From positions 1,201,115-1,265,114 of the forward strand of contig OY253651.1 in the NCBI GenBank assembly GCA_958009055.1: a stretch of DNA of 64,000 bases, in the 5' to 3' direction. Shown in pieces: positions 316 through 64,000 of the stretch. The notes below the pieces were generated by a model. The model worked only from the letters and a program-made list of their open reading frames with translations. It did no database searches and was not told the origin of the DNA. The stretch is from Choricystis sp. odSpoLacu1. Taxonomy: Eukaryota; Chlorophyta; Trebouxiophyceae. Numbering within the stretch: the first letter of the stretch is position 1; each line of letters starts with the position of its first letter. The position numbers and the translations under genes were made by a program.

Positions 316-2123
316 TCACAGCACAAACCTTTCCACCGCCTCCACCACCCCCCGCTCATCATTGGCGGCGACGACCGCATCCGCGACGGCACGCACTGCC
401 GCCCCCGCGTTGCCCATCGCGACGCCGACGCCGGCCGACGATAGCATCTCTAAATCGTTGGCCCCATCCCCCACCGCCACCAGGTCGGACGGGGTGAGGC
501 CCAGGTCGGCCAGGACGGCGGCGACGCCTGTCCACTTGGTGACGCCGGTGGGGACAAGCTCTAGCATGTCAGCCACAGCGCGCGCAGTCGACGCGTCACT
601 CCCTTCCAATCTCTCTGTCCATTCAGGCACGATCAAGCCGTCCACAGTCGCGGGTGGCGCCAGAAAGATCAGCTTCAAGATCGGGGGGCCAGACAGCAAG
701 GCATCCAACGAGGGTGTGATCACCGCCCGTGGTTCGTGGTAGACAGAGTGCAGCGAGGCCACCTCGTCTCCGCCCACCAACGCAACGCACGCGTCCCCCG
801 TGAAGCCGACGCAGGGTGTGGCGGTGTCCAGGCCGTATTGAAAGGCGGCAGAGACGACGGAGGCAGGCAGCGCGGACCGAGGACCCACACGTGCCCCCGC
901 CTCCCCATAACTCGCCAACCCCTGCAAAAACACGCCGGGCAGGTGGTCGCCCACAATGACGCCACCCAGCCCCGCGTGCGCCAGGGCGGTGCGGGCGGCG
1001 GGGCGGGCTTTGCCGGTGGCGGGGAAGACGCGGCACCCGACCGCGACGGCGGCACGCAGGGCGTCGGCGGCGGCGGAGCAGGGGAGGGAGGCAGACGTCA
1101 GCAGGGTGCCGTCCAGGTCCAGGGCGAGGGCGGCGGCACGTGGGGGGCGGCGGCGGGAGGGCGTGGGTGAAGGTGTGCGCGGCGCGGCAGGCGTGGGTGC
1201 AGAGGCGCCAGCGTCACCACCGTCGTCGTCGTCTCCTTCGCCTCCTGCCGCTTCGATCAACCCGGTGCCACTCCACCCCAGCTCCGCCAGGGCGGTGGCC
1301 TCCGCGGCCGCCATGGCGGCTGCTTCAGCGGGGGGCACGTTTTCATGGTCAAAGCCAACAAGGTGCAAAGCCCCATGCACCAGCAGCACACGGCACTCGG
1401 TGAGCAGGGGGTGGGAGCGGGCGACTGCCTGGCGGGCGGCAGTGTCCAGGGACAGGACGAGGTCGCCCAGGGGGCGGGGCGGCAGCGCGTTTTCTTCGTC
1501 GTCGTCGTCGTCGTCGTCGCCAGCTGCTGCCAGCGCGGCCAGCACGCCAGGCGGCAGGTCGTCCATGGGGAACGACAACACATCGGTAGGGCCGGTCACG
1601 CCCCTCCACTCTGCGTTGAGGGCGGCGATGGTGGCGTCGTCGGTGAGGACGAGGGAGACTTCTGCAGGGCGGGACGGGAGAGGGGACGCGACCCCTCCAC
1701 TCCCTGCCTCCCTCTCCGCCGCCAGGCGCAGCGCGATGGAGGCGGCTGCCGCGGCATCCGCGGCCAGCGCGTCCGCCAGGGCGGCGACGTCGGTGGAGCT
1801 GTGGTGGGGAGTGGGGGGAGGTGGTGGTGGTGGCCGTCGCGCGAGGAAAAAAAGACAGCGAGACACTTTTTTCTCTTCCCCATCAAACCAACACACTCTC
1901 ACCTGTCCCCTGACAACGGCTCTCCCTCCACTCGCACGTCTGCCGACACTGGGACAGTGGGGCGAGGGGTGGCTGCTGCTGCTGCAAAGGAGCGACGCGG
2001 CGGCACGCCGACTGTAGGCCGGGGCCGGGGCGCGGCCAGCCGGGGCAGCAAGACACGGGCGCGTGTCGAGAGGCTGCGGCTGTAGGCCAGCGCCGCCACG
2101 CGGCGCAGGGCTAGCAGGCGCAT
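316..2123 (-). CDS. YbeY endoribonuclease fused to a Cof-type HAD hydrolase, organellar
   Basis: Two exons, 2123-1903 and 1798-316, with a 104-nt GT-AG intron (phase 2); about 567 residues. Exon 1 encodes a basic, Ala/Arg-rich leader (MRLLALRRVAALAYSR), typical of a plastid or mitochondrial transit peptide. The YbeY part carries the zinc motif HGALHLVGFDH (H-x3-H-x5-H) and GDLVLSLDTA, so it should act in rRNA 3' maturation. An acidic linker leads to a HAD phosphatase with motif I DLDGTLL and the C-terminal GDGANDLEML. The same YbeY-HAD fusion is known as a chloroplast protein in land plants, which argues for plastid rRNA processing. The HAD substrate is unknown. The 159-bp upstream interval is shared with the lipase gene. 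Confidence 0.9.
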
Positions 2124-2282
2124 GGGCGCGCCGAGGGAGACACAATCTAGCGCAGAAAAAGAGAGACGAGCAGTGTCTGCAGCGTCAACGCCTGTCACAC
2201 ACTGCTTTTCGCGGAAGGGTGTGTGTTGTGGGGAGCCTCGCTGCGACTTTCGGATCGACGCGCCCCCGCTCCAGCACCTCCC

Positions 2283-22882: not shown

Positions 22883-23889
22883 ATGGCGGGCGTGGCGTCG
22901 ACGACGACCACGCCGTGGCGCCGGCGCCACGGTCGCCGCCGCGGTTGCCAATGGAACCAAGCGCATGGGCCGTCGACACGCTGGGCGGCAGTTTTCGGTC
23001 GCCAGACGTTGAGCACGCGTTTTGGGTGCACTTCACACCAATGTGCGCGGGTGAAGGGTGGTGGAAAGTTGGGGCAGTCGCGTGTTTTGGCCAACGTTAT
23101 CTTCTCCGCCTCCCCTAGCACCACGGCTTGGACAGGGGGACAAACAAGGCAGGGAGAGGATGGGCAGTGACATGTTGATCGACCAACGAAAATCTTTCCC
23201 ACGCTGCCGGGTGGTCATCGCCTCGCACGCGGGTGGGCGCCCTGGTGACCGCGCGCGTGCTGGTTGCCGCGGGCACCACGCTGCAGGAGTGGTTGCGCCG
23301 GCTGTCCATCCTGCCCCCCGCGACCGTGGTGGCGCGCGCACACACCGGCGGCGCGGTGCCGTTGCTCGCGGTCAGCCTCATGCCGCGCACGCACGCGCTG
23401 GCGCTGCCCGCCCTCGGGTTTGTGCTGCCCGCGCGCGCCAACGCGCTCGCGTCTGTTCTGTCCATGGCCATTGTCATGACGGCTCACCGGTCCACTGTGA
23501 CTGTGCGGGAAGCCTACTTTGGGCGGGAGACACATGTTGCCATCGCGCAAGTGTTTTCGGCGGCCACGCGCGCCGTGTTCCACCCGACCGGGCCGCCGCC
23601 GCGTGCCCTGTCCGATGCGCGGTGCACCCTGTTTGTGACGTGGGTGGTGCACATCATTGCTGGCCTCGTGGTGCCGTGTCTGGTCACGCGCTGGTGGCTG
23701 TGCGGCGCGCGTGCGCGTTTCCGCAAGCTCGCGGGCCCTCCGCTCCCGCTCCCAGACCCCTGCATCCAGTCAGTGCTGCACGACACAGCCACCCTGGACA
23801 ATGCCACACTGTGCGTGGCAGTTGTCGCAGGATCGTCACTGGCGGTGTGGAGTGTGCTGGAGTGGGTGGACGCGGTGCTGCCGGCTTAG
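22883..23889 (+). pseudogene. Tandem-array copy 1: degenerate multi-pass membrane protein gene
   Basis: This copy is homologous to the next gene on the + strand. The start block ATGGCGGGCG is shared, but the distance to the shared LPM codons is 68 nt here against 72 in copy 2, a net 4-nt loss that puts the original ATG out of frame. The frame can be re-entered at ATG 22951 (MEPSAWAVDTLGGSFR, then SPDVEHAFW), and the exon ends at the same place (AT|GTGCGC at 23042). The next exon, from 23120, hits TGA in the expected frame; the homologous reading frame resumes after another in-frame TGA (23176-23178) and runs to TAG 23889 with RTHALALPALGF, AHRSTVTVREAYFGRE and LEWVDAVLPA. The first membrane segment is missing. 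It is most simply a decaying copy, unless splicing differs from copy 2. Confidence 0.6.
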
Positions 23890-24006
23890 CGATCGAAAAC
23901 ACAAAAACAGGGGTTTTGTGTGGGTTTTTTCGATTCCTTTCTTTTCGTGATTGTTTCGGCTTGATCATAACAATCCAACATTGGTGGCGGCTGAAGCGGC
24001 CACCTC

Positions 24007-24029
24007 GTTGAGCTTGCAGCAAGCTCAAC
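24007..24029. promoter_or_regulatory. Perfect 23-bp palindrome upstream of array copy 2
   Basis: GTTGAGCTTGC and GCAAGCTCAAC are exact reverse complements around one A. It lies 146 bp before the copy 2 ATG. A CACGTG core (within ACACGTGT) follows directly at 24027-24034, and a 6-bp-arm repeat GGTGGC/GCCACC precedes it at about 23983-24004. Confidence 0.55.
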
Positions 24030-24174
24030 ACGTGTGTTTGCAAGCCAGGGGGAGGGGCTTTTTGTGCAAGCTTTTGGTGACAGCGAGAGTGAAAAAAATG
24101 AAGCGCGGGTTCCATGTTTCCACACCGCGCCTCCCCTCTCTCCAAATCACAGCCCCCGCCAACCAGCGCACCCC

Positions 24175-25251
24175 ATGGCGGGCGCCGCCTCGACATTGGT
24201 GGCAGCCGGGGAGGAGCCGCCCGAGCGCACGCAGGCGAGTCTGCCAATGCGACGGTCGGCGTGGGCCACCTCCCCACTGGGAGGCAACTTCAGGTCGCCC
24301 GACGTGGAGGCCGCATTCTGGGAGTACATGATGCCGATGTGAGAAAGGGGTGGTGGAGGGGAGGCGAACGCAGCGAACGATTGGGTGACGCAAACACCGG
24401 TTTCGATGTCCGCGCCCAAACACCCCACCCCAAACAGCACTGCTCCCTTTGACGCGGCCACAGCCACGCTCTCGGGCTTCATGTTCTTGTTGGCCATCGT
24501 CCAGATGTCGCCCAAGGGCGCAGATCCGCTCCCCTTTGTGGCGGCAGCCCTCGCAAACTTTGCGTGCGCGGGCGCGGCGGCGCGCAGCTGGCGCTCGTCG
24601 CGCGCGCGCGTGGCCGTCCTGGCCGCCATCCGTGTGTGCACTGCCGCAGGCACGACCGCCAGTGCATGGTTGCGAAGTCAGACCGATGTGCCAGAGCACT
24701 GGAAGCCGGCGCCCGGCGCCAAAAACCCGCCCTGGTGGGCGCTGCTCAAAACGCCGCGCACGCACGCGCTGGCGTTGCCGGCGCTGGGGTTCATGCTGCC
24801 CCCGCGGGAGCACGTGATGGCCTCTTTGTTTGCTTTGGCCGTCATTGCGTCCGCCCACCGGTCGACGGTGGTCGGGCGGGAAGCCTACTTTGGGCGCCGA
24901 CCGCACGCCATCCTTGGCGCCGCCTTCTCCACCGCCGCGCGCGCCCTGTTCAACCCGTTGGGGCCGTCCACCTCCATCTCGGACGCGCGCGTCACCCTGT
25001 TTGTGTGCTGGGCGGTGTACGTGGCGGGCGGCTGCATCGCGCCCTTTGTTGTCAGCCGCGCCTGGTTGCGCGGCGCGCGCGCGCGCTTCCGTGCGGTCTC
25101 GGGCCCCCCCAAGCCCGCCCTGAGGGGCGACCTGGCGGGCCTGTACCACACCGCCACCTGGGATAACGCCACCCTGGGTGTGGCCAGCGTGGTGGGTGCG
25201 TCGCTGGCGGTCTGGTCAGCGCTGGAGTGGGTGGACGGGTGGCTGGGGTGA
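24175..25251 (+). CDS. Tandem-array copy 2: seven-segment membrane protein, unknown family
   Basis: Exons 24175-24338 and 24438-25251, 99-nt phase-2 intron; 325 residues. A 50-residue soluble N-terminus ends SPDVEAAFWEYMM, then about seven hydrophobic segments follow, around LSGFMFLLAI, PFVAAALANFACAG, RVAVLAAIRVCTAAG, THALALPALGFMLP, VMASLFALAVIASA, RVTLFVCWAVYVAGG and ASVVGASLAVWSALEWV. Conserved loop motifs shared with copy 1 are KTPRTHALALP, AHRSTVVGREAYFG and YHTATWDNATL. There is no signal peptide. I do not recognise the family and see no catalytic motif. It is the intact centre of a three-gene, same-strand array. Confidence 0.8.
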
Positions 25252-25562
25252 GACAGGGACATGGGTTTTGTGTTTGTTTGTTTTTGTGTTTTGATTTTGT
25301 TTGGCCCTGTAGTTTTTTTTTTTCTTTTTTTTTTTTTCTTTTTTTTGTTTCCAGTGCTTGAAAGAGAGAGCGGGTTTGGCGGCTGGTGGGTGGGTGCTCT
25401 GCGCTTTTGGTTTTGACCAAAAGAGCAAAAAACTCGACGCACTCGCGTCGGCTTTTCTTTTTGCGGTTGGAAAAGAACACGCATCGGGGGTTGGTGTCGA
25501 CCCGCGGTTCCGCCACGCCAGCCGCCGCGCGTGGAGGCTGCCAAACTAAGGCGTCTCACACA
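25252..25562. other. Intergenic T-tract and paired palindromes before array copy 3
   Basis: The interval holds two long interrupted T-tracts (25312-25349), then two perfect inverted repeats: CTTTTGGT-tttg-ACCAAAAG (25404-25423) and CGACGC-actc-GCGTCG (25435-25450). No coding ORF is seen. The T-tract could serve 3'-end formation of copy 2; the repeats lie 110-160 bp before the copy 3 ATG. Confidence 0.55.
25404..25450. promoter_or_regulatory. Two adjacent perfect inverted repeats upstream of array copy 3
   Basis: The first has 8-bp arms and a 4-nt loop, the second 6-bp arms and a 4-nt loop, 11 bp apart. Different sequences but similar geometry to the palindromes upstream of copies 1 and 2. 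Confidence 0.45.
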
Positions 25563-26447
25563 ATGCGGGCGCGCACGCAGTCACTCGCGGCCACGCGGCG
25601 CGGCGCGGCCGCGCACGACGAGGCCGCGTTTTGGGACCACACCCACGCCGCGGCCGCCCGCACCTACGACGTCCTGGCCATGGCCGTCCTGGCCTTTGGC
25701 CACGCCTTCGCTGGCGTGCTGTACGAACCACGCGCCGTCGTCATCGTCGCCTCCACTCTGTGGACCTCGCTCGCCCTGTTCTGGTTTGCCCGCCCCAAGA
25801 CCGCCGCCCGCGTGCGCACCGTCGTCCTGCCCCTGGCCATGCTGACTGTGCCCGCCCTCGGCACGGCCAACATACTGTACCGCCACGCGCTGGACCTGCC
25901 CTTGGTGGCGTTCTCGGAAGCGTCCGCCCCCGGCTGGCGCGCGTTTCTCAAAACGCCGCGCGCGTCGGGGTTGGCCGTCATTCTGGCCGGCTTCATTCTG
26001 CCGCCCCGCGTGCATGCTGCTGCCACGGTCGCCCTGATCGCCGCCGCCCTGGCCAGCGCCCGCGTCTCGGCCGACGCGAGGGCCGCGTTTGTGGGGCACG
26101 GCCTGCACGCGCGCGCGGCGGCCGGGTTGAGCGGGGTGCGCGCCTGGCTCGGCCTCCCCCCCGCCCCCGCGCCGGGGGGCGACACTGATGCCGCCACCGC
26201 CACCCTGGCCGTCACCCTGTTCCTGAAGCTCGGGCTGGGCGTGGGGGGTGGGTGTGCGAGGCACGCCCTGGTGGCAGCGTCGCTGAGGCGCGGGTTTCGA
26301 GCGCGCGCGCGCGGCCCGCCTCGGTCCGAGGCTGCAGCCGCCCTGGATGCCACCGCCCACGTGGACACGCTGGTGCTGGCGGTCGCCGTGGTGGCGGGCG
26401 TGGCGGTGGTGCTGTGGTGGGGTCTGGAGCATGTGGTGCTCGGGTGA
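25563..26447 (+). CDS. Tandem-array copy 3: divergent seven-segment membrane protein
   Basis: Single exon, 294 residues, no intron. The order matches copy 2: a short soluble N-terminus ending HDEAAFWDHTHAA, then about seven hydrophobic segments (DVLAMAVLAFGHAFAGVL first, VLAVAVVAGVAVVLWWGLEH last). Shared motifs are AFLKTPRASGLAVI, GFILPPRVHA and RRGFRARARGPP. The REAYFG loop of copies 1 and 2 is altered to ADARAAFVGHG. Loss of the intron and low identity suggest an older duplication. Function unknown; membrane location is inferred from hydrophobicity only. Confidence 0.75.
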   Translation: MRARTQSLAATRRGAAAHDEAAFWDHTHAAAARTYDVLAMAVLAFGHAFAGVLYEPRAVVIVASTLWTSLALFWFARPKTAARVRTVVLPLAMLTVPALGTANILYRHALDLPLVAFSEASAPGWRAFLKTPRASGLAVILAGFILPPRVHAAATVALIAAALASARVSADARAAFVGHGLHARAAAGLSGVRAWLGLPPAPAPGGDTDAATATLAVTLFLKLGLGVGGGCARHALVAASLRRGFRARARGPPRSEAAAALDATAHVDTLVLAVAVVAGVAVVLWWGLEHVVLG

Positions 26448-26900: not shown

Positions 26901-27586
26901 ATGAAATCAGTGATCTTCTTGCTTGCCCTGGTGGCCGCCGTGAGCGCCAAAGGTGTGCGCTAGAGTGGGAGCCAGCGGGCGTGTGCCGCGCACACGCGCA
27001 GTCGCATGTGTGTGGCGCTTGCCTGCCGCCCCGCCGACGCCTCTACACCCCTGCTCACTCTCCTTCTCTCTCCCGTCTCTCTCACCCACATCCACAGAGC
27101 ACAAAGTCGACTGGAAGCTGCCGTCCCTGCAGTCCCCTCCGCTCGACGCGTTTGCCCCGCTGTCCGTCGCGGTGGGCGACACCATCGTCTTTGAGTGGAA
27201 GGGAGGGCTGGCCTACATGCTGTACCGCGTGAGCAAGCGTGAGTGTTGTGTGTTTTGGGAAAGGGGTTCTGTTCGACGGCGGGGATCACACAGACAAGAT
27301 CAAAACAGAAAAGTGCTCACCCTCTGCCCTTCCCCCCACTCCAGCCCTCTGCCTCGAGTCCGAAGCCGCCTTTGAAAAGGAAAAGGGGCTCGTCCTCAAG
27401 GAGTACAACCACGCCAAGACGTCGGGCAAGCTGACTTGGAAGGCGGACAAGGCGGGCGACTTTTATTTCGTCGACCCAGACAAGTGTGGCAAGGGCATGC
27501 TGCTGACGGTGACCGTGGAGGAGGACGCCAAATCGGTGACCTCGGCTGCGGCGCCGGCTGCGGCGCGCAGGCTGCTGGCTGTGTGA
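26901..27586 (+). CDS. Secreted phytocyanin-like (cupredoxin-fold) protein lacking copper ligands
   Basis: Three exons, 26901-26952, 27098-27238 and 27345-27586, introns 145 and 106 nt (both phase 1); 144 residues. MKSVIFLLALVAAVSA is a clear signal peptide. The rest follows the plastocyanin-like fold of plant phytocyanins: KVDWKLPS, SVAVGDTIVFEWKG, YRVSKPLCLES, GDFYFVDPDKCGKGMLLTV. Two Cys fit the family disulfide (LCLES and DKCGKG). The expected copper ligands are absent: the first His site reads Tyr/Met, the ligand Cys reads Val and the second His reads Lys. It resembles copper-free early-nodulin-like proteins of the cell surface. Confidence 0.65.
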
Positions 27587-52793: not shown

Positions 52794-53158
52794 GGTGAGG
52801 GTGTGTGTGTGTGTGTGTGTGGGAAGCAGAGCCCGATGTCGCTCGTTTCTTCTTTCTCTCTCGAGCGTGTGTGTGTGAAGAAGGCTGCGCCAAAACCCTC
52901 CGCTGTTTTAGTCTTCACAAACGCAGGGGCGAGCGGCGCACTCTTCCCCACGCCCCTGCGCTCATGCGTGTGTGAACCAAGCGCTCGACTCCGGACTGTC
53001 GGGACCTGTTCTGCGCCGCGCCTCGCGCCCGCGAGGAGCTGCGCGCGCGTGTGTCGTGGGAGAGAGTACTGCTCCTTTCCCTCCCCGCGCACCGCTCCCT
53101 GCTTTTTTGCCTACCCTCTCTCCTTTGTTGGTGTCAAGTCACCCCTCTGAATCCACCC
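52794..53158. promoter_or_regulatory. Divergent promoter region of ORC3 and the LRR kinase
   Basis: This 365-bp interval begins with (GT)n at 52801-52820 just upstream of ORC3 and ends in C/T-rich sequence before the kinase start. CTCGAGCGTGTGTGTG occurs near 52860. No gene was found. Confidence 0.45.
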
Positions 53159-56100
53159 ATGCCCCCAGTGCGGCTGGCCACGCTGCTGGTTGTGGCCGCA
53201 GCGGCCGCATTCGCGCCGCGTGGCGCGCGCGCCGACGACACGGCCAGTGACGGTGAGAGAGTGGGGTCGGGTGTGTGTGGGGGGCGTTGGAAGTGCGTGT
53301 GTGAATGGTGTGGACCTGTGTCCAGGGTTTGGGGAGCGCGAGAAGCGGCAGAAGGCGGGAGCGCGGGGCGAAACCGCCGCCATTGGAAGCCCTCATGTTG
53401 CCGCCTTTTCTCCCTTTTTCCCACCCCCGCCAGAACGCGCCCTGCTCGACCTCAAGGCCTCCATCACCAACTGGGACGACTTCCAGGCCGCCAACAAGCT
53501 GCAAGGCTGGAGCGAGAGCGAAAGTGGCAGCAATGACACCACCACCGTCTGCGCGTGGACGGGCGTCACCTGCGACGCAGACCACCGCGTCGTCGCCCTG
53601 GACCTCGGCTGTGCCTCTTTGCCGCTTTGCAGGGTCAAGGCAAACGGATCCTTACCCTCCACGTTAACGGGTCTGTCCCACCTGCGCCTCCTCGCCCTGA
53701 CAAACCAAAGCTTCCGCGGCGCCCTGCCGCCCGCGTGGGGCGCGGCGGGCGCGTTTCCGCATCTTGTCACCCTGGACGTGTCCCTAAACCACCTGTCGGG
53801 CGGCCTGCCCGCCTGGGGTGGTGGCGACGGCCTGCACTCGTTGACGACACTGGCCCTTGCCCGCAACGAGTTGGCGGGGGGCGTGCCGCCCGAGTGGGCT
53901 CACCTGACCAGCCTCAAAACGGTGGCCCTGTACCACAACGGCCTGTCGGGCGCCCTGCCCGCATCAGTCACGCATGCACTCCCCAACGCCACGCTGTGGA
54001 TCAAGCCGGGCAACTGGATGATGTGTGATGGGAAGGGTGGTGTGGCGGGCGCGGCCGCGCGCGTGTGCTCAGTCGATGGTTCGCGCGCCACCACGGTGGC
54101 ACCCATGTCCCTTACAGACACCGACTGCGACCGTGTGCCGTCGTTGGGGCGGGTGTGTCGCATGAATGGGGCGCCCCCCACGCGCGCCGCGATGCCGGCG
54201 AGCCCGCAGCACACGACGACGGGCATGGATGCTGCGCTGGGGGCGGTGCTGAGGTTGAGGGGGACTGAGCTGCTGCCTTTTGGCACACCGCGTGAAACCG
54301 ACGTGGAGGACGCGCTGGCGGGCGTGCTGGGAGTGCGTAGAAGTGCGGTGTCGGTGACGCAGGCTCTGGCGGTGGACGAAGGCGGCACCGCCCCCGCGAC
54401 CGCGCCTGGCGTGGCTCAACGGCGGTTGAAGCAGGCTGACAACGACAGCCAACCTCCCCTGGACCCACTGATCCCTGGCGACGGTGGCAACGCTGAGACC
54501 GCGCCTCCAACGCCCGACAAAACCGCGGTCGACGTCTCGGTGCGCGTGCTGCTGCGCACGGGCGCCCCCGACGCCGCAGCCTCCCTGGAGCGCGCCCTGG
54601 TGACGGCGGCAGAGGATGGCAGTTTATTGGCGTCGCTCAAGAAGGCAGGGCTGCCTGATTTGGATGCGGTCCAGCTGTTGGTCACGCTGCCGCTTCAACC
54701 CGAGCCACTCACGGCGGCCGACGCGGCCGCCCTGGCCGCGTCGCACGGCGTGAGCGGCGGCCAACGCCGTGTCGGCTTGATCGCGGCTGTGGTTGCAGCC
54801 GCTGCTGCGGCAGGCTGCGTTGCTGGTGTCGGCGGTTGGGCTGTCGTCCGCGCGTGTGCCGCGCGCCGCGCCGCGGTTGCGGACGATGGTGGTGGCGGCA
54901 AGACAGCGGAAGCAGGTGGCCGGCCGACCGCCACCCTCGCTCTGGCGCCCGCTGACTCGGCGTCCAGCAAGGATGCGGGCGGAGGCAGTGGTGGCAGCAT
55001 CGCGCCCGGCTCGCTGGCAGCAGCTGCTGCTGCAGCCGCAGCCGCAGCAACCACCACCCCTTCCCCACCTCCCTCCCTGCCCTCCCCCCACCCCGACTGG
55101 TCCACCATCCCTGAATCCGACCTTGCCATCTCCTTGCGCCCGGACGGCACCCCCTGGCTGCTGGGGGAGGGTGCCTACGGCCGCGTCTACCGCGGCACCC
55201 TGCGCGGCGTGCAGCCCGTCGCCGTCAAAGCCCTGCACGCGGGCGGCAGCGCTGAATCGTTTGCCCAAGAATGTGCCCTGCTGCGCGACTGTCGCTGCCC
55301 CAACGTGGTCGCCTTCCTGGGCATGTGCTGGCCCGCGGGCGGGGGTCCCCTCCTCGTAACCGAGTTTTGTTCCGGGGGCGATCTCTTCCGCGCCCTCGCC
55401 CGCCCCAACGCGGCCGCCCTGTTTGCGTGGCACAAATGGGGGCGGCGCGTCGCTGCCGACGTGTCGCGGGGCCTGGCTTTCCTGCACGCACGCCGCGTCG
55501 TTCACTTTGACCTGAAAAGCAACAACGTGCTGCTGACGTCGTCGGGGGAGGCCAAGATCGCTGATGTCGGCCTGGCGCGCGCGTGTGCCTCCAGTTACGT
55601 CAATCGCACCGACGGCGCCATCGGGACACTGTCGCACTCGGCCCCCGAACTTATTCTGGGCTTGAAATGCTCCGAAAAAGCCGACATGTTTTCATTCGGG
55701 GTTGTCTTGTGGGAGATCGTGACCCGCCTTCGCCCTGTGCGCGGCCAGATGCGGGACTTGGTGCCCGGCGAAGTGCCGGACGAGGTGGCGGCTTTGTTGA
55801 GGCAGTGCCTAGACCCCGACCCGCGCGCCCGCCCGACCGCGCGCGAAGCGTGCCGCGTGCTGACCGGCCACCCGGGCGACGCCATCGGCGTCAACGTTGT
55901 GGCCGGGTTGGCTCAGGCTGGTCAACATGCTCAGTCTGTCGCGCGCGAAGCGGCTGCTGCTGCCGTGGCTGCTGCTGCCGCGGCCTCCACATCCGACAGT
56001 GCTGCGCCGCCCACCCCGTTTGCGGCGGCGTGCCAGTCTCCATTTGCCAGTGGGGGCGGCGTCGGCGCCAGCAACCCTCGCGACGCGCCGCTGGCGCTGC

Positions 56101-56201
56101 GCGTGGCGGCGGCTGCGCGGGCGGCGCTGGCCCGGGCCAGGCGAAAGAGAGAGGGTGAGGACGACGATGAGGATGTGGGAGCTGTGGCCGCGTTTTTGTG
56201 A
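53159..56201 (+). CDS. Leucine-rich repeat receptor-like kinase
   Basis: Exons 53159-53252 and 53434-56201, 181-nt phase-1 intron; 953 residues. Exon 1 is a signal peptide (MPPVRLATLLVVAAAAAFA). An LRRNT-like cap (ALLDLKASITNWDD, CAWTGVTCD) and about five plant-type LRRs follow (LTTLALARNELAGGVPPEW). After a 230-residue linker comes one transmembrane span (VGLIAAVVAAAAAAGCVAG). The kinase shows GEGAYGRVYRG, VAVKAL, HFDLKSNNVLL (HRD reads HFD), DVGLA (DFG reads DVG) and SAPELILG. The Lys, catalytic Asp, Asn and metal Asp are kept, so it may be active. The layout is that of plant LRR-RLKs for external signals. Confidence 0.88.
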
Positions 56202-63713: not shown

Positions 63714-64000
63714 TTAGGGTTAGGGTTAGGGTTAGGGTTAGGGTTAGGGTTAGGGTTAGGGTTAGGGTTAGGGTTAGGGTTAGGGTTAGGGTTAGGGTTA
63801 GGGTTAGGGTTAGGGTTAGGGTTAGGGTTAGGGTTAGGGTTAGGGTTAGGGTTAGGGTTAGGGTTAGGGTTAGGGTTAGGGTTAGGGTTAGGGTTAGGGT
63901 TAGGGTTAGGGTTAGGGTTAGGGTTAGGGTTAGGGTTAGGGTTAGGGTTAGGGTTAGGGTTAGGGTTAGGGTTAGGGTTAGGGTTAGGGTTAGGGTTAGG
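63714..64000 (+). repeat. Telomere, (TTAGGG)n
   Basis: 287 bp of perfect TTAGGG hexamers, about 48 copies, running to the window edge with no variant unit seen. The G-rich strand points rightward, so the chromosome end is at or beyond position 64000. Confidence 0.99.

Follow-up and report, generated by a model that had tools for sequence, protein, structure and literature searches.

What kind of protein is encoded three times in succession near one end of chromosome 3 of Choricystis sp. odSpoLacu1, a green alga that lives with a sponge, and does it belong to any known class of receptor or transporter? The genes lie in a 64,000-base stretch of contig OY253651.1 (C3:1201115-1265114 in our coordinates), which we refer to as a whole as the window. 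An earlier sequence-only reading described them as related seven-segment membrane proteins of no recognised family. On sequence evidence, we find that they belong to a membrane protein family that is real, restricted to its lineage and missing from the libraries searched. The best specific account of its function, a stand-alone relative of the six-helix membrane domains of cyclases, is a tentative one that we weigh below against its alternatives.

A tandem array of three related genes

The three genes form a tandem array on the forward strand with spacers of about 0.3 kb each (Table 1). Copy 2 is intact, with a predicted protein of 325 amino acids (aa) encoded in two exons, and copy 3 is likewise intact, as one open frame without an intron. 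Copy 1 is broken, as had been described: its ATG at 22883 is in a different frame from the one bearing SFRSPDVEHAFW, the region corresponding to hydrophobic segments 1 and 2 of copy 2 is gone, and a match to the relative P0008 (see below) runs through one TGA and one TAG. Over 209 aligned residues, the open frame that remains in copy 1 shares 52% identity with copy 2.

The motifs that had been proposed to unite the copies are retained to differing degrees. An (E)AFW motif is common to the array, in the forms VEAAFW, EAAFW and VEHAFW, and EWV or EHV is shared across the copies. KTPR occurs in copies 2 and 3 but is replaced by LMPR in copy 1, while GFxLPPR is found as GFMLPPR and GFILPPR but becomes GFVLPAR in the third variant.

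A lineage-restricted family with two subfamilies

Judged by alignment, copies 2 and 3 are homologous beyond what composition explains. The exon 2 frame of copy 2 (P0001) aligns to copy 3 with a local score of 234, compared to a maximum of 141 among 500 shuffles that preserve local composition, and BLASTP gives E = 7e-10. In all five pairs tested, with 500 such shuffles per pair, the observed score was never reached. A lack of significant similarity between these copies, which would have undone the sequence-only reading, is thus not what we observe.

Three protein searches resolve a family of eight proteins, three from the window (P0001, P0004 and P0005) and five from other contigs (P0002, P0003, P0006, P0007 and P0008); as each search scored only about 8,000 candidates, those with most words in common, more distant relatives may be missed. 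P0002 and P0003 are 80% and 68% identical to P0001, respectively, while in the alignment P0006 and P0007 reach 77% and 63% identity to copy 3. The tree splits a subfamily B (copy 3, P0006 and P0007) from subfamily A (which includes copies 1 and 2) plus P0008 with support of 100/100, and copy 2 groups with P0002 (90/98). P0008, which has a long branch, is placed only tentatively, as are copy 1 and P0003 relative to each other. P0002 and P0006, the orthologues of copies 2 and 3, are each listed on a contig of 43,899 bases from the same source, and because size and source are identical, the two very probably share one 43.9-kb contig. The two subfamilies are neighbours in this alga and probably also in a relative. 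Queries of copy 3, P0008 and P0002 against the window's own genome find no copies beyond this array; the row at E = 4.17 in the P0008 search corresponds to exon 1 of copy 2. Prokaryotic and viral contigs, scanned with one or two short patterns, show no relative.

The description as a family not previously recognised holds up in every library consulted. None of the three copies matches a Pfam family, and no sequence of a solved structure matches better than E = 0.41. Among the eight members, Pfam yields no match at E<=1, including any to a catalytic domain in the same protein, and a single stray match at E = 1.7. NCBIfam gives one weak match (E = 0.14); three PHROGs families (best E = 0.012) each match one or two of the eight members, which we take as chance; and the Foldseek viral library returns nothing significant. 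A confident match of copies 2 and 3 to a known transporter or receptor family, the other result that would have overturned the earlier description, did not appear. Literature searches in which all terms were required found no paper on a lineage-specific seven-transmembrane family in Trebouxiophyceae and none on a six-transmembrane MASE membrane domain. In a further literature search, none of the 8 papers listed out of 1,592 refers to Choricystis.

Membrane topology

The count of about seven hydrophobic segments is recovered by a hydropathy scan in both copy 2 and copy 3, but the seven are not the same ones: in copy 2 the scan counts residues 212-230 and misses the short stretch ahead of LPPR, while in copy 3 the reverse occurs. 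Six to eight segments is the honest range. With seven segments, whose boundaries were taken from the copy 3 model, the net charge summed over the eight members comes to +57 for the N-terminal side and +29 for the opposite side, the N-terminal loops of P0001-P0004 being incomplete in this count for want of exon 1. The N-terminal side has the higher net charge in seven of the eight (P0004 is the exception), and it leads in four of eight when lysine and arginine alone are counted. Leaving out segment 4 turns the balance to +28 versus +37, and leaving out segment 7 gives +50 versus +39. A cytosolic N-terminus is therefore only weakly favoured by the charge pattern.

Candidate functions of the family

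The explanation that survives best, to which we would give an even chance, is that this is an orphan algal membrane family with a different role, for instance as a transporter, channel or lipid enzyme, and a fold unlike that of the cyclase domains, in which case the structural resemblance described next would be a general effect of helical bundles. That none of the libraries searched holds a significant match to the sequences is consistent with such a family, as are the weak structure models, the negative profile comparison below and the lack of cyclase rows for the copy 2 model.

Possible, although not probable, is our preferred specific account, which draws on a structure model: a lineage-restricted membrane family of about 300 residues, each protein of which would be a stand-alone cyclase-type six-helix membrane sensor without an enzyme domain. 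For copy 3, AlphaFold yields a weak model, with a predicted local distance difference test score (pLDDT) of 57 and a predicted template modelling score (pTM) of 0.53. With a second-look aligner, cyclase membrane domains head the structural rows for this model, namely those of adenylyl cyclase 5 and ImcA; VIA-align results cover only the families it lists. Each protein would then correspond to the six-helix membrane domain that precedes cyclase enzymes, except that a seventh helix would take the place of the enzyme domain; both the ExAFW helix at the N-terminus and the basic RxRxR stretch following helix 6 would lie in the cytosol. Such a protein may act as a membrane sensor or a partner subunit, its helix bundle binding a lipid or membrane ligand and the change being relayed to another protein via the basic cytosolic stretch, or through pairing of A with B. 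An unlikely elaboration is that, in this sponge-dwelling green alga, the sensing half of a cyclase has evolved into an independent membrane receptor that stands alone with no enzyme domain, in the paired A and B subfamilies.

Two results weigh against a cyclase-type domain. The model of copy 2, which is also weak, returns no cyclase rows, and a profile comparison with a bacterial six-helix sensor family (29 domains of one family, from 30 loci with the partial row L036 dropped) gave an hhalign score of 14.7, below the maximum of 17.1 among reversed and permuted controls. Because this comparison is negative, we do not file the family as a cyclase-type domain, and only the suggestion that it works like one is retained.

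Bacterial six-helix sensors have an F..LExxF helix ahead of helix 1, a feature that was chosen before it was looked for. One locus in a Smithella bin carries a domain with an LExxF helix ahead of PAS and GGDEF domains, and a search of 297 genomes from the same phylum matched this domain in 28, the starting genome counted. The bacterial six-helix sensor domain before PAS-GGDEF (L022 8-700; loci L023-L052) itself matched no Pfam model in the one protein scanned. A tblastn search of plasmids with the LExxF consensus found nothing, and the six cyclase loci of Sinorhizobium meliloti pSymB, with frames for five of them (all except L010), include no six-helix cyclase. Two such cyclases (L018 and L019, compared with Pfam only) were found in eight plasmid records examined, from 60 listed of 153 matching. 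Within the alga, the only PF00211 cyclase match found (G000:C5:713314-713610) continues in frame into a long hydrophobic tail rich in alanine. This tail resembles the family by eye, and kinship was rejected: its hmmsearch score of -33.2 bits falls inside the range of the shuffles (-26.6 to -41.9, from about 20 printed of 300 made).

Quite unlikely, in our judgement, is that these are weakly constrained accessory genes of the subtelomere that evolve fast, have no fixed biochemical role and persist through duplication and decay close to the chromosome end. The location of the array about 37 kb from a telomere and the decay of copy 1 fit this idea, as do ratios of nonsynonymous to synonymous substitution (dN/dS) of 0.60 between copies 1 and 2 (218 codons) and 0.87 between copies 2 and 3 (208 codons), although in the latter pair the codon positions are near-equal and the comparison says little. 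However, conservation between copies 1 and 2 is highest at second codon positions (0.69 versus 0.55 at third positions), orthologues elsewhere are 74-80% identical, and the motifs are retained across about 32% identity.

The comparison with seven-transmembrane receptors is unsupported: a divergent G-protein-coupled receptor (GPCR) or other such receptor with an extracellular N-terminus is very unlikely, since the approximate segment count and the predominance of GPCRs among the 50 Foldseek rows listed are set against non-significant values (best E = 0.2, TM-score about 0.2), the weakly favoured opposite orientation, no match of the three copies or eight members to the 7tm Pfam models, and three G-alpha matches in the genome of which none exceeds the cut-off, in an exon-by-exon search that is not proof of absence. 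Microbial rhodopsins carry their Schiff-base lysine in helix 7, whereas segment 7 has no lysine in any of the eight members, which speaks against the rhodopsin form.

Genomic setting

The window is the telomere-capped end of chromosome 3. The genome we searched comprises 14,593,115 bases in 19 contigs, with C3 and C5 at 1,265,114 and 1,219,714 bases. The genome report describes Choricystis sp., a green alga and cobiont of the sponge Spongilla lacustris, with 16 chromosomes, a plastid and a mitochondrion spanning 14.6 Mb, chromosome 3 being 1.27 Mb at 70% GC and chromosome 5 1.22 Mb (PMC12141999). TTAGGG telomeres are also described for the related green alga Medakamo hakoo (PMC9871001).

Table 1. 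Features of the window, in window coordinates.
Feature	Position	Strand	Description
Copy 1 (subfamily A), decayed	22883..23889	+	exon 1 frameshift, segments 1-2 lost, last 236 codons open
Copy 1, open frame	23179..23886	+	236 aa, continues to gene end
Copy 2 exon 1	24175..24338	+	starts with ATG; soluble N-terminus with FRSPDVEAAFW
Copy 2 intron	24339..24437	+	GT-AG, 99 bases, predicted from DNA
Copy 2 exon 2	24438..25251	+	hydrophobic segments; includes stop codon
Copy 3 (subfamily B)	25563..26447	+	294 aa, intronless; includes stop codon
YbeY/HAD frame	319..2184	-	YbeY endoribonuclease and HAD hydrolase domains in a single open frame
Small gene	26901..27586	+	adjoins array; apparently contains introns
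LRR receptor-like kinase	53151..56198	+	single open frame
TTAGGG telomere array	63714..64000	+	end of contig C3, ~37 kb past three-gene array

The description of the rest of the window as single-copy housekeeping genes is only roughly right, as a leucine-rich repeat (LRR) receptor-like kinase is also present about 7.5 kb ahead of the telomere array. Its frame encodes, in order, an LRR N-terminal cap, repeats that match structures of plant FLS2 and PEPR1, one hydrophobic helix near residue 541, and a kinase domain (671-901); an upstream exon is likely because there is no methionine before residue 290. The small gene adjoining the array has a hydrophobic, signal-like first exon, and its last frame has no Pfam match. 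Elsewhere in the assembly, a small contig (G000:C17, 26,000 bases; L053) carries exons of a class C GPCR (7tm_3) and has a GC content of 37-40% in the 9.5 kb read, versus about 70% for the chromosomes; it may be contaminating DNA of the host sponge.

Comparison with known systems

Whether the membrane domains of cyclases are receptors in their own right is raised as an open question in the abstract of one paper (PMC12414865). If the cyclase-type account of the array family is true, the family would be a natural test of that question, a receptor existing without the enzyme. If it is false, the family is still a real one, missing from the libraries searched, in a sponge-dwelling green alga with a small genome.

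Set beside the six-helix membrane domain of class III adenylyl cyclases (AC5 and Rv1625c), the array family differs in its extra seventh helix, its long loops and the lack of a detected catalytic domain, and the PDB sequence search, the only means by which adenylyl cyclase membrane domains were compared, gave no sequence match. It differs from the diguanylate cyclase ImcA (PDB 8wcn) in having no GGDEF domain, and no sequence relation to the six-helix domain of that enzyme was found. Although it aligns to the bacterial six-helix sensor of L022 no better than the reversed or permuted controls do, the two share, by eye, a Glu-x-x-Phe at a similar distance ahead of segment 1.
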